The notes under the pieces: model-generated
Told to the model about the DNA's origin: nothing
The model's database searches: none
The model's input: the letters and a program-made list of their open reading frames with translations, nothing else
Assembly: GCF_037975245.1 (NCBI RefSeq)
Contig: NC_092583.1
Coordinates: 13,729,764-13,793,763 of the forward strand
Length of the DNA stretch: 64,000 nucleotides
From: Apostichopus japonicus
Lineage: Eukaryota; Echinodermata; Holothuroidea; Aspidochirotida; Stichopodidae
Reading direction: 5' to 3'
Shown here: one piece after another, positions 42,508-60,500 of the stretch
Layout: each line of letters starts with the position of its first letter
How positions within the stretch are numbered: the first letter of the stretch is position 1
Position numbers and translations under genes: made by a program

Positions 42508-45500
42508 CTGTAAGAGAAATGTAAGAGAGGAGTTTGTATCCCTTATTCAACCCCCAAACCTGCCCCCTTCCCCTATTAACACCCTGGTCCCACACCTTGT
42601 GTACAATACAGCCAAAGCAAGGTTTTCCTTTAGATATTTGAGGAGGTGGGGAGGTGATTGTTCATCATAAATTAAAGATGAAGGGTTACTTCTCCTCTAA
42701 AAAGAAAACTTCAGAAAGAGGTATCAAAATACAACCCTGCATAGATGGTAGTTTTGTCATGGTATGTGTGACACATCAAAAATCATTTCTTGCCCAAAGT
42801 CATTATTTCAGGTAGATTCAGCACTCACCTTTGGTTGATAAACTGTTCTCTTTTAGCAGTTCATTACTTGCTGACCTTATTCGACTTGGATGAAGCTTCT
42901 GCCTTCTGGACGGTTTATTTGGAGCCAGGTTGAAAGATTTACTCTCTATTACCGAATGACAAACAAAATGACACACATTCATCAGTTACCAGTTCAATTG
43001 TTTTAACCATTAAAATACATTAAAAATACTTAGTAATATTTAAACATTGACTATGATTTAATTTTTTTTACTATTAACATACTTCTGAAATTGTTTTGGA
43101 CTATATGCGTTTTGGTTTTTAGTATCGTTTAGTACGGGTGTGTTTATTATATTGTTGCTTTTGGCCTTTACATCTTTTGCCTTATTGGTTCTATATATTT
43201 AATATTTTGGTGTTTGTTACTATTTGTTTTTAGGTTTTACATTTGTAAAGCGCTTTGAGCAGCTTTGCTGATTATGCGCTATATGAATATTACTTATTAT
43301 TATTAAATGTCTGAAATGCACTGTAAAAAGCTAACACAATAAATAGAAAACATAAATGCATCAGATGTTTGAAGATAAAAGTACTTCTCTTCTAACCTGT
43401 GCCATTATGTAAATTTTTGCAGCAAAGTTAACAACTCCAGGGAAATGAAGTATTTCACACAGTCAGAGATCTCACATTCTTCAGTATAACATTCAATCAT
43501 TGCCATTTATTTTTCACTACCCATTCACACACATTAAATATGGTATTAACTATTAAGATAGGCATACCTTGTACATGACCCGTTGGCATGGTAACTGCTG
43601 ATGATGACCTCTGCCTTCTAACTTGGCCACTAGTTGTAAGTTTCACTTGTTGTTTTTCATCTGAAAAAAAGTACAAAATATTGAAAAGATAAATAGAGTT
43701 AAAAAATTATTTCACATACACTATCTTGCACCTTTTTGCACATGACTGCAATTGACTAGTGCTCTGCATACTCTATTAAACTTTACTCTACTTTATTCTA
43801 TAAAATTAGGTTCTGGGTATAATCAACCCTGCAGTGTTTTTTTTCTCTGTATAAAAAAGCAAAAAAAAGGATTTAATTTTCTCAGTTACCAGTTTCAATA
43901 TGACAGTGTGTTCAGAATATTGGTGCCAAAAAACTTGCTCAAGAAGGAAGGAATTATAAAATGATTCAATGAAATTTGCTTTACTTGAAAACAAATTAGT
44001 TGTAAAATCTTGCAGTGGTGACAAAGATGATAAAGTTGACTCACTTTTTGAAGTTGGCCCGTTACCGAGACCAGTATTATTCTCTACGATACGTCCTCGC
44101 CAGTCAAACTCGGACTTCGGAGACGGTGATGGCCAGCTACTGAGACGATCTCTGGATGGCGATTTGACCGTCACCTTGCCTCTCGGTGGTCTCTGCTGGG
44201 CGCTCTTGACCCGCCCCTTTGAAGCGCCTTTGTTCTGGATACTTGGTAATGTCCTCTCTGTGCTGATTTCCTTCCTTTCTAACTCAAACTGAATTTTTGT
44301 CACCGATTTGAAGGAGTCGTGCTTATCAGCGGAAGGACCGGCTGGGTCCTTTTCAGTTCTCTTCGTGCTAGATGGTAGATGGTTAGTTTCCAAACTTGTT
44401 CTTCTGCTTCTTCTTGGCCTCCTCATGATTCCTTCGCCATCTATCAGAGGATTTTTCTGTTCCCTGTCGTTCACCGCTTTCTCGTTCTGCTTCACACTTC
44501 TCGAGAGAGTCTTACGTTTTTCTAAAGGCGCGAAGAGTACCCGTTCCCCCCTTACCCCAAACTTGGATGGATCTGATTTTGATGATGATGGTGCATTTTC
44601 CAACTTGGCCTCTGTTTTTGGTTTTCTTTTCTTCAATTCCTCCTTTTTGGTGTATTGTAAATTTTCTTTCGAGGTTAGAGAGTTAACATTGATACTATCA
44701 GATTTTTGTCGAGACCTCCGTCTAGTCTTACTGTTCTCTTTGCCAGCTATCTCTCTGTCATCACTTCCACTCTTTTTCCGAGCATTCTCATTAATTTTCA
44801 TAGCCGCTTCAAGAGATTCTTCTCGGTCAGTCTGTGATTTTCCTTTGTGATCATCTGCTGTCCCTTCCCCACCAACCTCATCTATACTCTCATGGATTTG
44901 GCCTGTTTTTCTAACAGTCTTAAAAGTTTCAAGAACCTCTGAGTTATAAGAATTGACATCTTGACTTTGACTCAATTCTTCTGTGAAGAAAACCCTTTTC
45001 CTTACATCAGTCTCAGATTCACTCCTCTCCCTCCTCTTAAAATCCTCATCCTCTTCTCGCTCTCTACTCTCCACAAATTCTTGATATTCTTTCTGTCCTT
45101 TTAATTTTGCCTCAGTATCATTTTTAAACGTATTTCCATCCACCTCGTATTCTGCTTTCGTTTCCACCTTCTCAAAAAGACTCTCACTTTCCGGAAGTTT
45201 CTGCTTTGGATCTTTCCCCAAATCTAAACTAATTCTGCTACCATTCCCTGCCTCCTCCTCATCATCTACCCTATACTCTTCGCCGTCGGTCTGCACAGTA
45301 ATTTCGCTCGCCATATCTGTTGTTTCCTCGGTGAGATGGAATTTCCCCGAATGACTCTTTACATCGCAAACTTCTCCAATCTCACTGTCTATTTCAAGTG
45401 TTTTTTTCTCTCCTACTCTATTGGCACTGTGTACTATTGCTGTATCAGGTTCATTCATATTGCTCTGTGGTTGTGTTTCACTGCCCTTTGCTCCATCTAT

Positions 45501-48500
45501 CAGCAATTGCTGCTGCAATTCATTTTCTTCTCCATCTCTGTCATCTCCAGCAGTTTCACATCTTCCAGTATCAGCCTCCTCACCTTCTTTCTCTGCTGGT
45601 GTGCCTCCATCAGCCTCAGATGGTCTCATCTTACTGCCCTTGGACTTATCCTTGGAAGATTCTTTATCCTTGGAAGATTCTTCTAAGCTACTCTGTCCAC
45701 ACTCTTTCTTCCTACGAGGATTAAGAAGATTAAGGTAGTATACAAATAATTTCATTTTTTTCGAAGTGTATTTCCTTCTTTCAAACGGCAGGCTAAAATC
45801 TGACATCACAACCCCTAGCCGTACAGGCAAGTGTGAATTATTGAAAATTGTGACTTCAGTGAGTCCCACTATAGTCCCACTATGCTACCCATATCTTACT
45901 CCTCCAAGTGTGCTCATTACACCCCACTATGCAACTCTTACCGTCACCACCATCATTCTACCCTCACCCACATTACACCTTATAATGTACCCTGTACCTG
46001 GCTCACACAAGTGTGCCCTATACACCCCACTTTGAACCATTAAAGCCCTTACAATCCCATTATTCTACCCTTACCCACATTACACCTCACAATAGCTTGC
46101 ACCAAGTGCTCTCATTGCACCCCATCATGCACCCTTATTGACTAGAACAACCCATCATTCTATCCTTACCATCATTTCACCTCACACTGTCACCGTTAAC
46201 TTGCTCAACAAAAGTGCAACGATTACATCCTATCATTGGAACCTTACTGCCATTATAACCCATTCTGATATCTGCACCCCCACCAACACCCCACCTTGCC
46301 TCTAATAACACCATTACGCAACCCCATACCACCGTTACCTTTCCTCTAATAACACCATTACGCACCCCCATACCACCATTACCTTGCCTCTTATAACACC
46401 ATTACGCACCCCCATACCATCGCTACCTTACCTCTAACAACACCATTACGCACCCCCATACCACCGTTACCTTGTCTCTTATAACACCATTACGCACCCC
46501 CATACCACCGTTACCTTGTCTCTTATAACACCATTACGCACCCCCATACCACCGTTACCTTGTCTCTTATAACACCATTACGCACCCCCATACCACCGTT
46601 ACCTTGTCTCTTATAACACCATTACGCACCCCCATACCACCGTTACCTTGTCTCTTATAACACCATTACCCACCCCCATACCATCGCTACCTTACCTCTA
46701 ACAACACCATTACGCACCCCCATACCACCGTAACCTTGTCTCTTATAACACCATTACGCACCCCCATACCACCATTACCTTGCCTCTTATAACACCATTA
46801 CGCACCCCCATACCATCGCTACCTTACCTCTAACAACACCATTACGCACCCCCATACCACCGTTACCTTGTCTCTTATAACACCATTACGCACCCCCATA
46901 CCACCGTTACCTTGTCTCTTATAACACCATTACGCACCCCCATACCACCGTTACCTTGTCTCTTATAACACCATTACGCACCCCCATACCACCGTTACCT
47001 TGTCTCTTATAACACCATTACCCACCCCCATACCATCGCTACCTTACCTCTAACAACACCATTACGCACCCCCATACCACCGTTACCTTGTCTCTTATAA
47101 CACCATTACGCACCCCCATACCACCGTTACCTTGTCTCTTATAACACCATTACGCACCCCCATACCACCGTTACCTTGTCTCTTATAACACCATTACGCA
47201 CCCCCATACCACCGTTACCTTGTCTCTTATAACACCATTACGCACCCCATACCACCGTTACCTTGTCTCTTATAACACCATTACGCACCCCCATACCACC
47301 GTTACCTTGTCTCTTATAACACCATTACGCACCCCATACCATCGCTACCTTACCTCTAACAACACCATTACGCACCCCCATACCACCGTTACCTTGTCTC
47401 TTATAACACCATTACGCACCCCCATACCACCGTTACCTTGTCTCTTATAACACCATTACGCACCCCCATACCACCGTTACCTTGTCTCTTATAACACCAT
47501 TACGCACCCCCATACCACCGTTACCTTGTCTCTTATAACACCATTACGCACCCCCATACCACCGTTACCTTGCCTTTAATAACACCATTACGCACCCCCA
47601 TACCACTGTTACCTTGCTGCTGCGTGCTTCCGTAGCTCTTCGTGCTTGACGAGTAATAATTTTCTCTCCAGGAAGGTTTTACGAACACAGTATCCGCGAA
47701 ATATGGCCTGAAGGAATGCAAAAGCACATTGCAATGAAAACAGCAATAAAATAAGTTTACAAAAAATAGGAACAAATGGAACGAAATTTGAGCCATATTA
47801 GGAAAAGTCCTAACAGAACAGAAGAAATAAAAACATGAAAATGAGCGGACAATCGTATCATGTTTGTTCAAACACATTATGTCTGCAATTTTATCGAACT
47901 TAATGATCATGGCTGAGCCAATTTTGCTGAGCCAGTATTAAGATGGAATTAATACACAAGAATTTTCAGTTTGACAGTTTTGCAGAAAATACTAAAAGGC
48001 TATTCTACTACTTTTAAAGTCCAAATGAGCCAAATGATTTACTTCTTTAAATTGAACAAAAAATATTTGCATTTGCATTTTTTATTACTTTGTTTTTATT
48101 TTGACCAATAATTAAGGGCTCAATATGTCTGCAATGTCTTATCATCACAAGGACTCTCTGAACAGTGACAGGCTAAGAGTATTCCAGATTGAGAGTTGGT
48201 TCATATTATTGGCCAATTATCTTGTAGGAAATTATCATTAAATTTTCTTTACATGGAAACAAAATACACATATAACTTTTGTTTAAGTTTTAATTATATA
48301 GTTTTTGTTTCATAAAATGAGAAATGACTTCATGAGAAAACTGCAGTATTAAAGTGATAAGCATTTTGTCCATCCTCCCTCATTGCACTCCCCTCCACCT
48401 CCTCCCCCACCCTCACACCATTTACAAGAAGTTATATTTGTTCTTCAACAATGTTAATGAACGGAACAAACCTGGATTCTGCTGGCTGCTAGGTCCCTGA

Positions 48501-51500
48501 TGGTGTTTATAGACAGAGCTCCTTGTTCTATCATAAACTGAACCACTTCATGGTGTCCATTCAGTAGGGCGTGATCCAAGGGTGTGAAGCAGTCTTCATT
48601 CACCTCCATGTGGTTAATGAACGAGCCGTGTTCCAACAAGAGCCGAACCGCTTCCAGGTAGCCTGTGCTGCACGCATAATGGAGGGCTGTAACACCCTAT
48701 AATATCCGGGAGAAAAGACAAAGACAACGATGGTGTAAAATAGTGGAATCATACAAGTAGAAATGGAAACTGTATTATAGGACAACAGCCAGTAATACTG
48801 TAACACCATAGCAAGATACAGAAACATATTGTATTACATGACACCCAATAATAACAGTAACATACAGTAACATATTGATTTTGTATCACACGACACCCAG
48901 TAATAACAGTAACATACAGTAACATATTGTTATTGTACTACATGTTACCCAGTAATAACAGGCACGTACAATAACATATTGATGTTGTATCACATGACAC
49001 CCAGTAATAGCAGTAACATATTAATATTGTATCACATAACACCCAGTAATAACAGTAACATATTGTTGTTTTACATGGCACCCAGTAATAACAGTAACAT
49101 ATAGTAACATATTGATATTGTATCACATGACACCCAGTAATAACAGTAACATATTGATATTGTATCACATGACACCCAGTAATAACAGTAACATGTTGAT
49201 ATTGTATCACATGACACCCAGTAATACCAGTAACATATTGATGTTGTATCACATGACACCCAGTAATAACAGTAACACATTGATGTTGTATCACATGACA
49301 CCCAGTAATAACAGTAACATATTGATATTGTATTACATGGCGCCCAGTAATAACAGTAACATACAGTAACATATTGATGTTGTATCACATGGCACCCAGT
49401 AATAACAGTAAAATATTGATATTGTATCACATATCACCCAGTAATAACAGTAACATATTGATATTGTATCACATGACACCCAGTAATAACAGTAACATAT
49501 TGATATTGTATCACATGACAACCAGTAATAACAGTAACATATTGATGTTGTATCACATTACACCCAGTAATAACAGTAACATATTGATGTTGTATTACAT
49601 TACACCCAGTAATAACAGTAACATATTGATAGTGTATCACATGACACCCAGTAATTACAGGAACATACAGTAACATATTGATGTTGTACTACATGACACC
49701 CAGTAATAACAGTAACACACAGCATCATATTGAACATATACAACACAGCACCCTGTAATATCAGAAACAAATAATAATTTGTTGAAATGTATTTGACAGG
49801 ACACCTTTTAATAACTGAAACATATCATAAAATTAGTATAATGGGATTTCCTATGGTAACAGAAACATTTGATAGCCTATTAAAATTCAATTGTATCGAG
49901 CACACTTCTATACAGCTAAACTATACTAATATATATGCTACTCTGATAGTCTAATATTTAAATGATGATAATTTGACCTCTGACCTCCTTGTCTTGTAGA
50001 TCTGGATCAGCCCCTTCCAGTAGTAATATGTTCATACAGTTGATGAACCCACCGTACGCCGCACACTGGAGAGGGGTTCGACCGTGGTGATCCTGAACGT
50101 TAGGGCTTATCTCATGCTTTAAGAGATTGGCACATACACAAGAGTGGCCTCCTCTGGCCGCCCTATGGGTGAAAATAATAAAATATGAGCAAATACAGGA
50201 TATTGTTGCATTGTGTCCTTGGGCAAGGCACTTTATCTCCATTGCCTCTCATACCCAGGTGTATAAATGGGGACCTGTGACATAAAGCTGTGAGTTGGGC
50301 GTTGTTTAGCTACTGCTTGTGGAGCGATTGTCTCTATGTTTGACAGGTTATCGTTGACCAGGGTAAATATTGTTATACGCCTTTTAACCGTTATCGGTGT
50401 ATATGTCTGCGCTTTATAAATCCTCAATAATATTATTATTTGATATATTTGTGCTTTGTTTTTGCATTGTTGATCGTCCTTTCATATTTTGCACATGATG
50501 TGACACTATATGATGATAAAATTGTGTCATCATTTTTCAAAAGGAACTTTAGTCTATTCATAATATTGAGAGAAAGTTAGTAAACATATCATGTCATTCA
50601 ATCCACCACTACTTGCATCATACATATTCATGAGACGTAATGAAATGAGAGAAATGGCTGCTAAAGTTAGTTCAAAATCACAAACAGATACTAGTGAAAC
50701 CAACTTAGAAAGGATAATAGCTATAACATGCTAGTTTTGATCGGCAACAATTGTGTCCATGACACAATAACAAATTTAGGAGGAGATATAGGTCATCGCA
50801 AATTACTTTCAATTGTCAATAATAACTAATTTAGGAAGAGAAATAGGTCATCGCAAACTACTTTCAATTGTCAATAACTTAACAAACTGAGGAAGAATCG
50901 TAATTAACCAAATACTAAAGTTTTTATTGGCGATAGAAACACATGTATTGATGAAGGAATAACAATATATGAAAGCATTATAGATAATCAGCTCAAATAA
51001 ATTAACATATCAAAGGTATAATTATATCAACATATAAGACATAATTATATATCAATATGAAATTCTTAACACAATAGTTCACAATTAATGATTCATAGTG
51101 AAATATCAAAAAATATCAAGTGGCTGGAAATTCATCTCACATCTCTAAAGACAGTTTATGCTGCATATATACTGCATCTTTTCATTATTAATTTTTTTAA
51201 GTTCAATTCTCTCTCTCTCTCCTCCTCCCCCCCCTCCCCTCCCACTAGGTAATAAGGGGTTAATCAACGGTCTAGCGTCTAGCATTAACACCCGGAGTGC
51301 ATTAATCATGTGAGTAACGCACGCTAGACCGTTGATTAACCCCGTTCATTCATACACTACCATTTGTGTGGGGGAAAAATCATAAAACAAAACATTTTTG
51401 GTTACATATAACCAAAGATTTATTAAAGTGATGCCCCGTAATTTCACCGTGCGTTACTCACAGGATTAACCACGGTCAGCTGACCTGAATGGACCAATAG

Positions 51501-54500: not shown

Positions 54501-57500
54501 TCTTCAAATCAAATTAAGTTTGATCCATTTTCAGCAAATCAGCCATGAAATATTGTCAGAAAAATGATATTTGTAGAAGGAGAAGACTAAGAAAAGTTCC
54601 AATTTTTCAGTCTTTTTTAAAGCCTAATTTCTTGGAAGGAGATTTTTGCGAACCTGTAGCCCCAATTTTGTCTGTTGCGTCAATATCACCATGGTGACCC
54701 ATCATAACGTGAATGACATCATCAGCACCCTTCCCTGCTGCCCACATCAAAGCTGTTCTCCTCTCCATGTCCGGTTCATCAGTGATGTCCTCCCGAGATA
54801 GAAAGGCTTCCACTGTCTCCTGTCAATTTCAAGTGAGTTAAAGTTTGTAATTGTTACTATTGGTTCTCTGAAGGCATCGATAGCTTGCAACATTAAAATA
54901 ACACCAGGCAGTAGCTAGAGGTTTTGGCCCCCGGGTGCAAGAGTAGACAATTGTGCCCCCCCCCCCCACTGAAAGAAAAAATAACTTGCGCAAACAATTT
55001 TGGTTATATATTTCGGGCAAGTCGTTACAGCCCCCCGCCCCTAAATCAAATTGTGCTCCTACGCCTATGATATTTCCACCTTTCGAAATCTACTGCCTTG
55101 GAACAATATACTGAATACCTGAAATTTCTGTGACATGTAGTGTGACATTACAGAATACAGAACACAATAAAACAGAGAAAACAGTCGAAATGGACTGAAA
55201 AGAAATCACAATCTATAAATTTGCTAATAAAAACAACTACATTCAGTTCAGATTCTTATTAGTAACTGGAAAATATTCATGCCTGACGACATACATCAAT
55301 TTCGTCATGTGTCTTTAAAAGGGCGTATTTTTTACTCTCATTCTCCCATTTCAGCGCCCCCCCTAAACCCGGCGCCCGAGGCACATGCCCTCCCTTGACC
55401 ACCCCCAGCTATGCCACTGACACCAGGACATGCAAATTAAAGAGTAAATGAAGTCTAAACTTTCAAAAATTTATATCAGAGAGCAAGAAAACAGGAAACA
55501 TATTGGTTTCAACACTCATCTTCATAGCTCCTTATGTAGCTTATGGGTTACCGGCGCTTGCATCGAGCTGCCACAGTTGAAATGAGTAGTGTTGTATTTT
55601 TCACGTTTTCTGTGTGTTAACGAACCTTTCCTTCGTTCTGAAGTTATTCGTTGTCGTGTTGTGGGACTACTAACACTCTTCATGCCATTTTCGAAGGTTT
55701 TTACGGAACGGGTGAGACATACAACTGTCAATTTAGGACAGTGTTCTACGTTACTTATTTTTTTTGGCCAATAGTATAGGCCTTCTGCTATTGACATAGG
55801 ATAGTAGGATGAACCCTAACAATACCGATATCGTGGGAGGTGCTCGAAGCCTACACTATAGCTCGGAGACACTTCACAATATTCGAAGGAGTATGCAGAC
55901 CCACACAATAGAATCACGGTTGGTGGACATATTGAAAGAACAATCGATTCTTCGCAAGCACAGAGGTACGCGGGCCGGTATACAGAATCGGATTAGAAAC
56001 ACTCAATCTCATAATTTCAGCTTTCCTTATGGACTGACAGCAAATGTAAACAGTATTCAGGGAAAGTTTTTACACCTGGAGCAAACTGTTACAAACATGC
56101 GAAATCTATGTTTCATTACATTGCAAGAGACGAAACTGCAATCACCGAATAAAGAGTGGCTAAATGAAATCCCACAGCACTGTGTGCCAGATGAAGCGTT
56201 ACGCATGGCAAATTACTTTATGTTTCGCCATGACAGACAATTTTCGGCAAATGGCGGTGGATTGATAATGTATATCTCGAAAGACTGGGCAGTGAGCTAC
56301 CCAAAGGTATGTTGTAGTATTTTAATCCCGGATATTGAGCTTCTTGCCGTGAGAGCCAGGCCACGATACCTCCCCAGCGACATGTCGAATGTAACGATCG
56401 TGAATGTATACACCAGGCCGTCATCAAATTTCTCAACTGCAGATAAAGAACTGAAATCAGCAATTACTAAGCTCCAGAAGGAAAACCCACGAACTCACTT
56501 CATAATTGCTGGAGATGTCAATCGAGAAAGCATCGCATGTATTGAGACAATGGGTTTCAAGAATCTGGTGAATTTTGCTACTTTCTCTTCGTCCAATTCT
56601 GTCCTGGACGCCGTGTATGTCACGGGTGACGTCTACCATGTAAAGAAATCCCACCCGATATCCACATCCGACCACAGCAGTGTCCTACTCATCCCGAAGT
56701 ACACAGAGAAGCATCGTGCTAAGAAGCAACGACGAAGCAGATCACAGAAGGACTTGTCATTTGATAACGTCAGGAGCATGCAAGAGATGCTTCAAACGAC
56801 CGACTGGAATGTATTTCGTGAAGGCTGCGATGACCCAGACGAATTAACTGACGTCATTTCAAGTTACATTGAATTCGTCAGCGATGTATGCATACCAATG
56901 AAGCAAATAACACCTGCTGAGATGATGAAGCGAATCCCCCCAGACAACAAGATCAAACAACTGGAAAAGCAAAAACAGAAGGCCATCGAGGACAAAGACA
57001 ACATCTCCAGGAACAGGATGCAGAGGGAAATCAATAAGCACGTAAACAATCTGCGAAGTGACACCTTTGGAGGAATAAAAGGAAACTCTCGTGCATTCTG
57101 GGATGTCGTCAAATCCATAAGAGACCCTACTAAAGATGACCAGCCTAGGCGGGTTGATGCAGATTTTGGGAAGGAACTATCCGACTATTTTGGACGGTTT
57201 AATGACTCAATAAGTAAAGATATACCGTTATACCTACCTGAGAAGAATGAGGGTTGTCATGAACTTGATGTCAATGTGGTAAGGAAACAGTTTGGGAAGG
57301 TCAAAAGGGGTGTTGCTTGTGGGTCAGATAAAATTCCGTGGTGGGTTTTTAAATTCTTTTCTTTTGAATTAGCTCCAATATACACATCACTCTTCCAAGA
57401 AAGCTTACAACATAGTCAGATCCCTAACCTGTGGAAAACAGCACTAACATCACCTGTACCAAAAGTGGCGAATCCCAAAGATGTGAATGATTTTAGACCA

Positions 57501-60500
57501 ATTGACCTAGCAAGTATTGCTTTTAACAGCATGCAAAGGATCCTCCTGCCACGACTAACTGACAGTATCAATCAATTTGGGGACAAGCGTCAATTCGCCT
57601 ACAGAAAAGGTGTATCATGTGTAGATGCTGTGCTGTTACTTATCCACGAGGTTGTGTCAGAATTAAATTGCAAGGAAACCACAATAGCAAAGGTGCTTTT
57701 CTTAGATTTCTCAAGTGCTTTCAATACCGTCCTACCAAATCAATTAATTACAGATCTGTCAGGTTTCATCACTGAACCATGGCTCCTACACTGGCTTGCT
57801 CAGTTCTTAACTGGGTGGTCAAGACACGTTAAATTGGAGAATGGGTTGTCTGATAGGTCAGAGATTAAAGTTGGAGTGCCTCAGGGTGGTCCATTGTCTG
57901 CTTTACTCTTCACATTATATACGGATGAAATCAAGTCTGGTGGTCATATCTCAATCACAAAATATGCCGATGACACTGCTATATTATGCAAAATATCCAA
58001 GAGTTCATGTGTCAATGATCAGCTGAACTATCAGCAATCAGTCAACGACGTGGTTTCAACATGTGATAGAAAGAATTTGTTGCTAAATGCTAAGAAGTCG
58101 AAGGAAATGTGCTTTGCTAACATCAATATAAAACATCAAGGTCTTCTGTCTGCAAGATCACAAGGTGTCACCATACATGAATCTGAGGTAGAACGAACAT
58201 CAAGAACTGAATACCTAGGAGTATGCATTGATGATAATCTAACGTTCACGTCGCATATCTCGAAAATCTTAAAAAAAGTGTATTATTTTGTATCAAGTCT
58301 TGCCTATATTGTGTCATTCTTTAATGAAGGTGCAAGAAAAAATGTGTTCAGCTCCTTTATTCTGCCACATTTACTTTATGCTGTTCCTGTATGGTATCAC
58401 TTTATATCATCTTCTGACAAGCATAGACTGATGAGATTCCTTAAGTATACTTCACGTATATTGAATGTAAGCCAGCTATTACTGAAGGATCAAGTAAACA
58501 CAGCTGCAAAGAATGAATTTGTAAGGATGACAAATAAAATTAGAGATGACAAAGATCACCCACTACATGGGCCACTTAATTGTCTGTTGGTGAAAGCTAC
58601 CAGGAATCTTAGGAACCCTCATATCTTGCCAAAATATAGAATTCAACTTTATAAGAACTCTTTCATCTACCGTGCTGCAATTTACATTCAATTTGGTATT
58701 TTGGAACCTTTCATTTAATTTTACTCATTGTTTCACCTAGTTCTAGTAATGTACATAGTTTTAACGCTTTCTTGTTGTGCAATCTTTTGAACATCTTATC
58801 TATCACGGTTTTCATATTCTTTAATTGTTTCACCTAGTTCTAGTAATGTATATAGTTTTAACGCTTTCTTGATGTGCAATCTTTTGAACATCTTATCTAT
58901 CACGGTTTTCATATTCTTTAATTGTTTCACCTAGTTCTAGTAATCTACATAGTCTTAACGCTTTCTTGTTGTGCAATCTTTTGAACATCTTATCTATCAC
59001 GGTTTTCATATTCTTTAATTGTTTCACCTAGTTCTAGTAATGTACATAGTTTTAACGCTTTCTTGATGTGCAATCTTTTGAACATCTTATCTATCACGGT
59101 TTTCATATTCTTTAATTGTTTCATCTAGTTCTAGTAATGTACATAGTTTTAACGCTTTCTTGTTGTGCAATCTTTTGAACATCTTATCTATCACGGTTTT
59201 CATATTCTTTAATTGTTTCACCTAGTTCTAGTAATGTACATAGTTTTAACGCTTTCTTGTTGTGCAATCTTTTGAACATCTTATCTATCACGGTTTTCAT
59301 ATTCTTTAATTGTTTCACCTAGTTCTAGTAATGTACATAGTTTTAACGCTTTCTTGTTGTGCAATCTTTTGAACATCTTATCTATCACGGTTTTCATATT
59401 CTTTAATTGTTTCACCTAGTTCTAGTAATGTATATAGTTTTAACGCTTTCTTGTTGTGCAATCATTTGAACATCTTATCTATCACGGTTTTCATATTCTT
59501 TAATTGTTTCACCTAGTTCTAGTAATGTACATAGTTTTAACGCTTTCTTTATGTGCAATCTTTTGAACATCTTATCTATCATGGTTTTCATATTTATTTA
59601 TTTTTGAGTTTGACATGTGTACTCCTTTTTATAAATATGCTATATTTATACTGGTTTCAATAAATGAAAATGAAATGAAAGCTGATATCTAAAATTTTTA
59701 AATGAATCCTTTTTTCTTCATCTGATTACATTGTGCAATAAGTTGGGATTTCATATACAGACAACAAATCAAAGCGTTTTTTCCTTTTCATTATGCAAAT
59801 AGATATTCCTAATCAACTAATAAGTTTTATACTATGATAGGGGAAAAAAGGGGGGAAAAAATCAAATTACTTACAGCATGGTTATTTTGGGCAGCATAAT
59901 GTAAGGCTGTAGCACCGTTTCCATCTGAGCTTGAAAAACTGGCTTTCTTGTCCAGTAAAAGGTTGACGATGTGAGTGTGGCCCAGGACAGCGGCCCAGTG
60001 AAGAGGAGTACGAAACAGGTTATCCAGTACAGATACATTACACTTTTCAAGGTGTGTCTACGGTAAAACAATTAAGAAACAAAAACAAAAATCATAAAGG
60101 TGCTCTAGTTAACGCCCATATTCCTGATTAGTGCAAGATACCTAGATTCAGCAATGTGTAGGGTGGGCTCTAGCTAAAGCCCACTTACTTGATTTGTGCA
60201 ACATAGTGGGTCCCTTTCTCAGGATTTGGCCAATGGGCCGCCTAATTAAGAGCCCCAGACTACACCTTAGAAACTAAACTGTGGCGAGCTTATTCTGGAT
60301 TATCACTCTGCTGAACTATGGAAATCATTCTAAACATTAGAGGAGGGAGAGGATTGGGGAGAGTGTGGATTGTGAAAGGGAGGGGGTGTGGATTATGAAG
60401 ATTAGCAATAGAAAATAGTATCTATTAAAGGTTTCATGCCAATTATAATTCATTTACTAATATTTACAGTACTATTTACAACAAAATCATACGAATGAAA

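Follow-up and report, generated by a model that had tools for sequence, protein, structure and literature searches.

A minisatellite of thirty donor-bearing units at the 5' splice site of an IQ-like exon in a sea cucumber

In a minus-strand gene of the sea cucumber Apostichopus japonicus, the intron behind an exon with part of an IQ-like motif opens with thirty tandem units, each of which repeats the GT of that exon's own 5' splice site. This raises the question of whether such an array supplies the spliceosome with donors that are put to use, or is a growth that the gene tolerates. An earlier note on this DNA had offered both answers: that later donors, being in frame at every third unit of 44 nt, could tune the protein just after a calmodulin-binding motif, or that the gene bears the array without harm because the first donor prevails. 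We analysed the array within the window (the whole 64,000-nucleotide stretch of DNA considered here), and compared it with other arrays in the same genome and with known structures of this kind.

Host gene and anatomy of the array

The gene crosses the window on the minus strand, with ankyrin exons followed by an IQ-like motif that is split on two exons (SRIQ/AIFRGYCVRK; the slash marks a splice boundary here and below). The gene model is our own, drawn from open frames and splice signals, and apparently lacks one or more ankyrin exons in the interval 54653-53139. The ankyrin repeats are strong (Ank_2, E = 2.8e-28 in Pfam for two joined exons), and the IQ match (PF00612) scores 16.6 bits against a Pfam cut-off of 20.3; the "IQ exon" of the earlier note is thus correct as far as the presence of an IQ-like motif goes, and in need of qualification as to its split and its score. 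From the order of ankyrin repeats and then an IQ-like motif, the gene is a candidate inversin, a name that fits the architecture. Searched against the genome, the protein sequence of the preceding exon matched its own locus at 100% and other places weakly (best 4.2e-6), with no second gene copy seen.

The exon at the edge of the array (47707-47613, minus strand) is 95 nt long, carries the second half of the IQ-like motif, and is defined by its open frame and splice signals; it reads AIFRGYCVRKTFLERKLLLVKHEELRKHAAA plus AG, is entered in phase 0 and left in phase 2 (AG/G), and ends as AAG/GTAACA. Base 1 of the following 1901-bp intron (47612-45712, minus) is 47612, and the predicted acceptor AG lies at 45712..45713. 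The predicted next exon (43809..45711, minus) is a long open frame from (R)KKECGQSSLEESS, starting (R)KKECGQSS and with a provisional 3' end, for which a Pfam search gave no match.

TRF reports the minisatellite at 46293-47616 (period 44, 30.1 copies, 93% matches, score 2305), overlapping exon bases 47613-47616, so that the repeat spans the exon/intron boundary. Our own split of 46295..47612 (1318 nt, minus) gives 30 units counted from intron base 1, with a GT in the donor register in all 30. The array, which makes up 69% of the intron, does therefore begin at the exon edge, which sets the phase of the units, and does present tandem donors throughout, both as the earlier note had it. Its details need some correction: the array of about 30 units is real, while of the limits given, 46268 and 47707, the former should be ~46295 and the latter is the start of the exon; the unit length of 44 bp applies to 28 units, the other two having 43 bp; and the sequence AAG/GTAACGG, attributed to each unit, occurs in 21 of the 30, the rest being different. 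By donor-register variant, the units divide into AAG/GTAACG (21), AAG/GTAGCG (5), AAG/GTAATG (2), AAG/GTTACG (1) and the exon's own AAG/GTAACA (1); on the sense strand of the window, AAGGTAACG is found 21 times inside the array and not once outside it.

The exon end matches the 29 later units over 3 nt (six units), 4 nt (20) or 5 nt (three), and since the match is so short, the repeated part is almost wholly intronic. On the transcript strand G makes up 42% of the array and C 6%, and 27/30 units carry a run of five G. No AG behind a pyrimidine-rich stretch (8 of 12) is found inside it, so by this rule it consists of donors without acceptors. When identical units are given the same letter, the order is ABBBBCDBEBBBCFBBBCGHIFBBBBCGJK, where B accounts for 15 of the 30. 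The edge units A, J and K each occur once and are distinct from the homogenised interior; they have ATTA where most interior units have ATAA, and the edges of the array therefore look older to us than its interior. The recurrence of blocks running from B to C, and then to D, F or G, suggests in our reading that blocks of several units were exchanged.

A search of the 671-Mb genome with the unit core, allowing up to 3 substitutions, placed 28 of 28 matches at the array locus; the search considered substitutions only, and in it N runs and missing matches do not prove absence. The idea of a dispersed repeat or satellite that landed at the exon is accordingly not supported. Growth from the donor region, as the earlier note inferred, is most likely in view of this single locus together with the phase set by the exon and the distinct edge units. 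A division of the unit into two 22-bp halves was weak (p = 0.016, mononucleotide shuffles) and was set aside.

In its distal 0.5 kb, the intron contains a degenerate tandem repeat of ~95 bp (45904..46186, minus), whose internal repetition is strong (score 124, where the highest of 200 shuffles reached 49); the minisatellite and this repeat (46186-45904) together make most of the intron tandem repeat. By eye, the distal part could plausibly descend from ancient 44-bp units. This is not supported by local alignment against the unit, whose score was matched by 43/300 shuffles and 2/120 other pieces of the window, and, in a second scoring, by 29/300 shuffles.

Other repeats occur in the gene. The preceding intron has a second minisatellite (48826-49769; 42-bp unit, ~20 copies), which lies off the exon edge, ~215 nt past the donor of its intron and ~130 nt short of the next exon (48472-48696). 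A further intron holds a non-LTR retrotransposon on the strand opposite to the gene (55809-58715, plus), with a 969-aa open frame in which a reverse transcriptase domain (2.5e-29) and an endonuclease domain (1.1e-6) are recognised; directly after this frame comes a tandem repeat with a 97-bp unit in ~9 copies (58727-59594).

Read-through and donor strength

Intron nt 2-4 (47609..47611, minus) form a TAA that is in frame with the exon, so that skipping the first donor would end the frame immediately. As the exon is left in phase 2, any later donor reads AGG TAA, and the predicted read-through product ends in ...HAAAR followed by the stop. This rules out in-frame isoforms by multiples of 44 nt: the earlier expectation that every third unit would keep the frame fails, because any extension stops after one codon, and for the same reason the calmodulin-binding region could not be tuned by added residues. 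A role of the array in tuning is thus unsupported in the form proposed. A product from a later donor is predicted to lose everything after the IQ-like exon, and its mRNA should be a target of nonsense-mediated decay, which acts on such early-stop mRNAs. Since every later donor keeps the stop, use of these donors would mean loss and not variety, and heavy use would, given AGG TAA, yield a protein truncated before the long next exon.

Donor strength was estimated as the predicted pairing energy with the 5' end of the genome's U1, a crude proxy for donor use. The U1 genes start with ATACTTACCTG in the three loci read (3/3), among 42 matches listed. These 42 matches are above the Rfam cut-off, and a tandem cluster of U1 snRNA genes (L009-L011; G000, contig C20, ~29.04-29.09 Mb) has many copies ~0.86 kb apart. 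The first donor of the array, AAG/GTAACAGT (GT at 47611..47612, minus), has a predicted energy of -6.5 kcal/mol and is seventh among the ten predicted donors of the gene (-5.5 to -11.8 kcal/mol); the three weaker ones have no such array. Better pairing than at the first donor is predicted for 69/277 intronic GT sites. Five GAG/GTAAGG sites, all off the donor register and on the minus strand, are clearly better by this prediction, at -10.1 kcal/mol: the GT of the first is at 47352..47353, and the other four begin at 47047, 46827, 46695 and 46431. The later copies that are in register mostly tie with the first donor (21/29), with six weaker and two marginally stronger. The second answer of the earlier note, a tolerated array in which the first donor wins, agrees with the lancelet precedents discussed below; donor strength provides no basis for it, given the 69 sites that pair better.

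Precedents and other arrays in the genome

Tandem duplications of exon/intron boundaries have been named "mirages" in the lancelet gene Adh3, where, in the portion of the paper available, the units measure 10-72 bp (PMC3087553). They are also described in the accessible text for the lancelet globins BflGb6 and BflGb9, troponin C and PGBD5, with AG/GT splice signals in many units and normal splicing reported as undisturbed (PMC3087553, PMC3902484). In BflGb6, according to the same partial text, the array edges stand outside homogenisation, and units of ~150 bp number 6 and 3 in two haplotypes, while BflGb9 has one duplicate (PMC3087553). The sea cucumber array resembles the mirages in spanning an exon/intron boundary, in carrying splice signals in its units and in its homogenised interior, and the Adh3 range brackets its 44 bp. 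It differs from the globin arrays, with their few units of ~150 bp, in its 30 x 44 bp format, and from the mirages in general in that normal splicing and length instability are reported there, whereas the present array is known from the sequence of one assembly.

The mitochondrial code, in which AAA is read as Asn, argues against a lancelet as host lineage. This reading belongs to echinoderms and flatworms, and in lancelet mitochondria AAA encodes lysine. In the COX1 on contig C35, AAA aligned with Asn at 9/9 sites and AGA with Ser at 4/5 (code 9, compared with the best solved COX1 chain), and the matched stretch has 11 in-frame TGA. COX1-like pieces with internal TGA also occur on G000 contig C29 (14745-31219), possibly more mitochondrial sequence, apart from the full COX1 on C35. 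We treat lineage as history and not as a structural criterion for the mirage class. No report of donor-edge arrays in an echinoderm was found by title or abstract start, in a literature search light on subscription papers.

The units of the minisatellite in human IFI6 (6-16, G1P3) reportedly serve as extra splice donors, as Turri et al. are said to have described (1995, NAR 23:1854). The available part of another source has two downstream repeat donors in use, and three mRNAs (PMC4526556). The likeness lies in minisatellite units that bear extra donors; unlike the downstream donors of IFI6, which are reported as used, those of the present array are predicted to meet a stop at once. Tandem duplication of sequence with splice signals is further known from intron gain, by duplication of AGGT proto-splice sites with potato RdRp as a case (PMC4974935, as far as its accessible text goes) and in the Rogers model (as cited in the available text of PMC3087553). 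In these cases introns are gained, whereas the present units have no acceptor-like site by the 8-of-12 rule and no new intron is seen.

The genome contains further arrays of this anatomy. A pattern of three AGGTRAGT spaced 20-50 nt gives 976 genome matches, and the reversed pattern 789, so that donor-bearing arrays are not clearly in excess. Such counts are in any case not meaningful as evidence of enrichment, as the outcome varies too much from one motif to another: with three copies, forward and reversed matches numbered 976 to 789 for the donor, 116 to 365 for the acceptor, and 1967 to 255 and 1454 to 294 for two neutral motifs. The 100 matches listed of the 976 form 10 arrays (this and the other array tallies are our own groupings of the matches listed), which would extrapolate roughly to ~100 donor-bearing arrays genome-wide. 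All ten were examined, and four begin at the donor of an exon recognised by family: L022 (Saf4/Yju2, 2.8e-12 in Pfam; TRF edge 23 nt inside the exon), L027 (glycosyltransferase family 21, 9.3e-11 in Pfam; 33 nt inside the exon), L029 (serine palmitoyltransferase subunit 1, 1.1e-5; 4 nt inside the exon) and L031 (tyrosine phosphatase, 3.3e-10 in Pfam; 16 nt inside the intron, with the exon's own donor heading the series). By eye, L023 follows exon-like sequence with no Pfam family and L028 short exon-like sequence; L025 starts 93 nt past the donor of a TIL-domain exon, and no exon was seen by eye at L024, L026 and L030.

As controls, 42 arrays found with donor-unrelated motifs were inspected: 11 of the 22 listed for the reversed motif (those dropped being mostly simple repeats), 8 of the 18 listed for the acceptor motif (mostly dispersed families dropped) and 23 for the two neutral motifs (24 places taken from 28 distinct ones among the matches listed, after removal of duplicates and neighbours, less L062, which had no TRF row). 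Two of the 42 start no more than 21 nt away from the donor of an exon with family support, namely L036 (PDZ, 0.0004, 21.1 bits and so just below the cut-off of 23.2; starting at intron nt 7) and L076 (BSMAP, 4.2e-12; starting at intron nt 21). Two more have a similar look and no family support: L074, from intron nt 4, and L040, from 13 nt inside an apparent exon. In L040 (~1053-1749), the apparent exon end has GTAAGT in the first unit and the GT is lost in 11/12 later copies; with GT kept in 1/12, donor-edge arrays appear also to decay, and L040 is possibly such a decayed stage.

The number expected among the 42 is 0.16-0.47 if 100,000-300,000 introns are assumed; for 150,000-200,000 introns it is 0.23-0.31, with a probability of two or more of 0.02-0.04, and for 300,000 introns that probability is 0.08. 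The control numbers are low and were obtained in part by eye and after the fact, the eye screening having preceded the Pfam test and not being blind, and we treat them as a lead and not a result. For the 23 neutral arrays, 40/46 edges lie within the sequence pieces examined; among 13 frames of at least 40 aa able to open an exon after a neutral array, the one family match is a retrotransposon endonuclease, and none gave the start of a host exon. The other control edge frames, down to a length of 40 aa (a limit that would miss exons with shorter frames), gave no family with E < 0.01 except L035, where a surface-glycoprotein match (0.0034, below the model cut-off) was taken as chance. With two control arrays at family-supported donors, and two look-alikes, against 0.16-0.47 expected, it is conceivable, though we rather doubt it, that minisatellites in this genome originate more often at exon/intron junctions, and there at 5' splice sites, than elsewhere, by a mechanism linked to transcription or splicing, the inversin-like array being one of perhaps at least 100.

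On read-through, a stop stands ahead of the second donor in six of the eight arrays examined (the window array, L022, L027, L031, L028 and L040) and past it in L029 and L023; for L023, L028 and L040 the frame was taken from an exon that lacks family support. As to strength, the seven other donor-edge arrays that were scored all open with a strong donor (-10.6 to -12.6). Later copies are weaker than the first donor in 18/29 cases in L022, 8/10 in L023, 46/47 in L029 (most by 0.1 kcal/mol) and 12/12 in L040, and in 1/10 in L027 and 6/13 in L028; L031 lost register in the scoring, and its strengths are left out. In the window array as in the others scored, the notion that decoys are held weaker than the first donor is therefore not general.

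Origin and possible roles

We consider it probable that the array is a minisatellite of the "mirage" type, born at the donor of the exon and spliced out with the intron, whose decoys have no protein product of their own. A short segment across the donor (the last 3-5 exon nt and ~40 nt of intron) would have been duplicated in tandem, after which slippage or unequal exchange would have multiplied the copies and made them alike until they took up 69% of the intron; splicing would mainly use the first donor beside the exon, so that the array leaves with the intron and the extra donors act as decoys. The anatomy, the single locus, the donor-register GT of each unit, the immediate stop, the distinct edges and the recurrence at other exons are observed, and it is from these that we infer the duplication history, the use of the first donor and the absence of function.

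The minisatellite might instead have arisen within the intron, with a later deletion joining the exon to one of its units and so replacing the original donor. The exon end and the units do match over just 3-5 nt, and the remainder of the intron also contains a tandem repeat; such a deletion would nonetheless have had to restore a donor in the correct frame, and arrays at several other exons begin at the donor as well, those of L022 and L027 even taking in 23 and 33 nt of exon, which makes this origin improbable in our view. Nor do we think it at all likely that the array serves a weak donor, its repeated donor-like sites and G-runs helping U1 and its partners to define the exon (+5 C) and so raising inclusion. 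The rank of the first donor, seventh of ten at -6.5 in a range of -5.5 to -11.8, and the five-G run in 27/30 units would suit such a role, which is pure inference; the three weaker predicted donors of the gene have no array of this sort, and seven other donor-edge arrays have a strong donor at their head by the same scoring (-10.6 to -12.6).

A regulatory role of another kind would have the array donors compete for and divert some of the transcripts to the stop and to decay, making a length-dependent rheostat of full-length protein with no new isoforms. The GT is kept in 29/29 later units, the TAA is met at once on any extension, the five off-register GAG/GTAAGG sites clearly surpass the first donor in U1 pairing, and the IFI6 repeat donors are reported to be in use in the part of that source available (PMC4526556). 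On the other hand, the nearest GAG/GTAAGG would extend the 95-nt exon by 259 nt, and lancelet mirages with splice signals are reported, in the accessible text, to give no aberrant mRNA (PMC3087553, PMC3902484), and we regard such control as unlikely. Under the preferred reading of a tolerated mirage-type array, some leakage to later array donors is possible, since downstream repeat donors are reported as used in human IFI6.

Minisatellites that duplicate an exon boundary are thus a known kind; what is new here is their extension to another deuterostome lineage and their recurrence in the same genome. Its possible abundance in this genome is a lead, and with four further recognised exons of the same anatomy a genome-wide count is worth making. 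The inversin-like array is most likely a tolerated growth and not a switch. As its later donors stop at once, and as predicted pairing does not favour the first, it would make a natural test of how the spliceosome chooses one among thirty near-identical donors.
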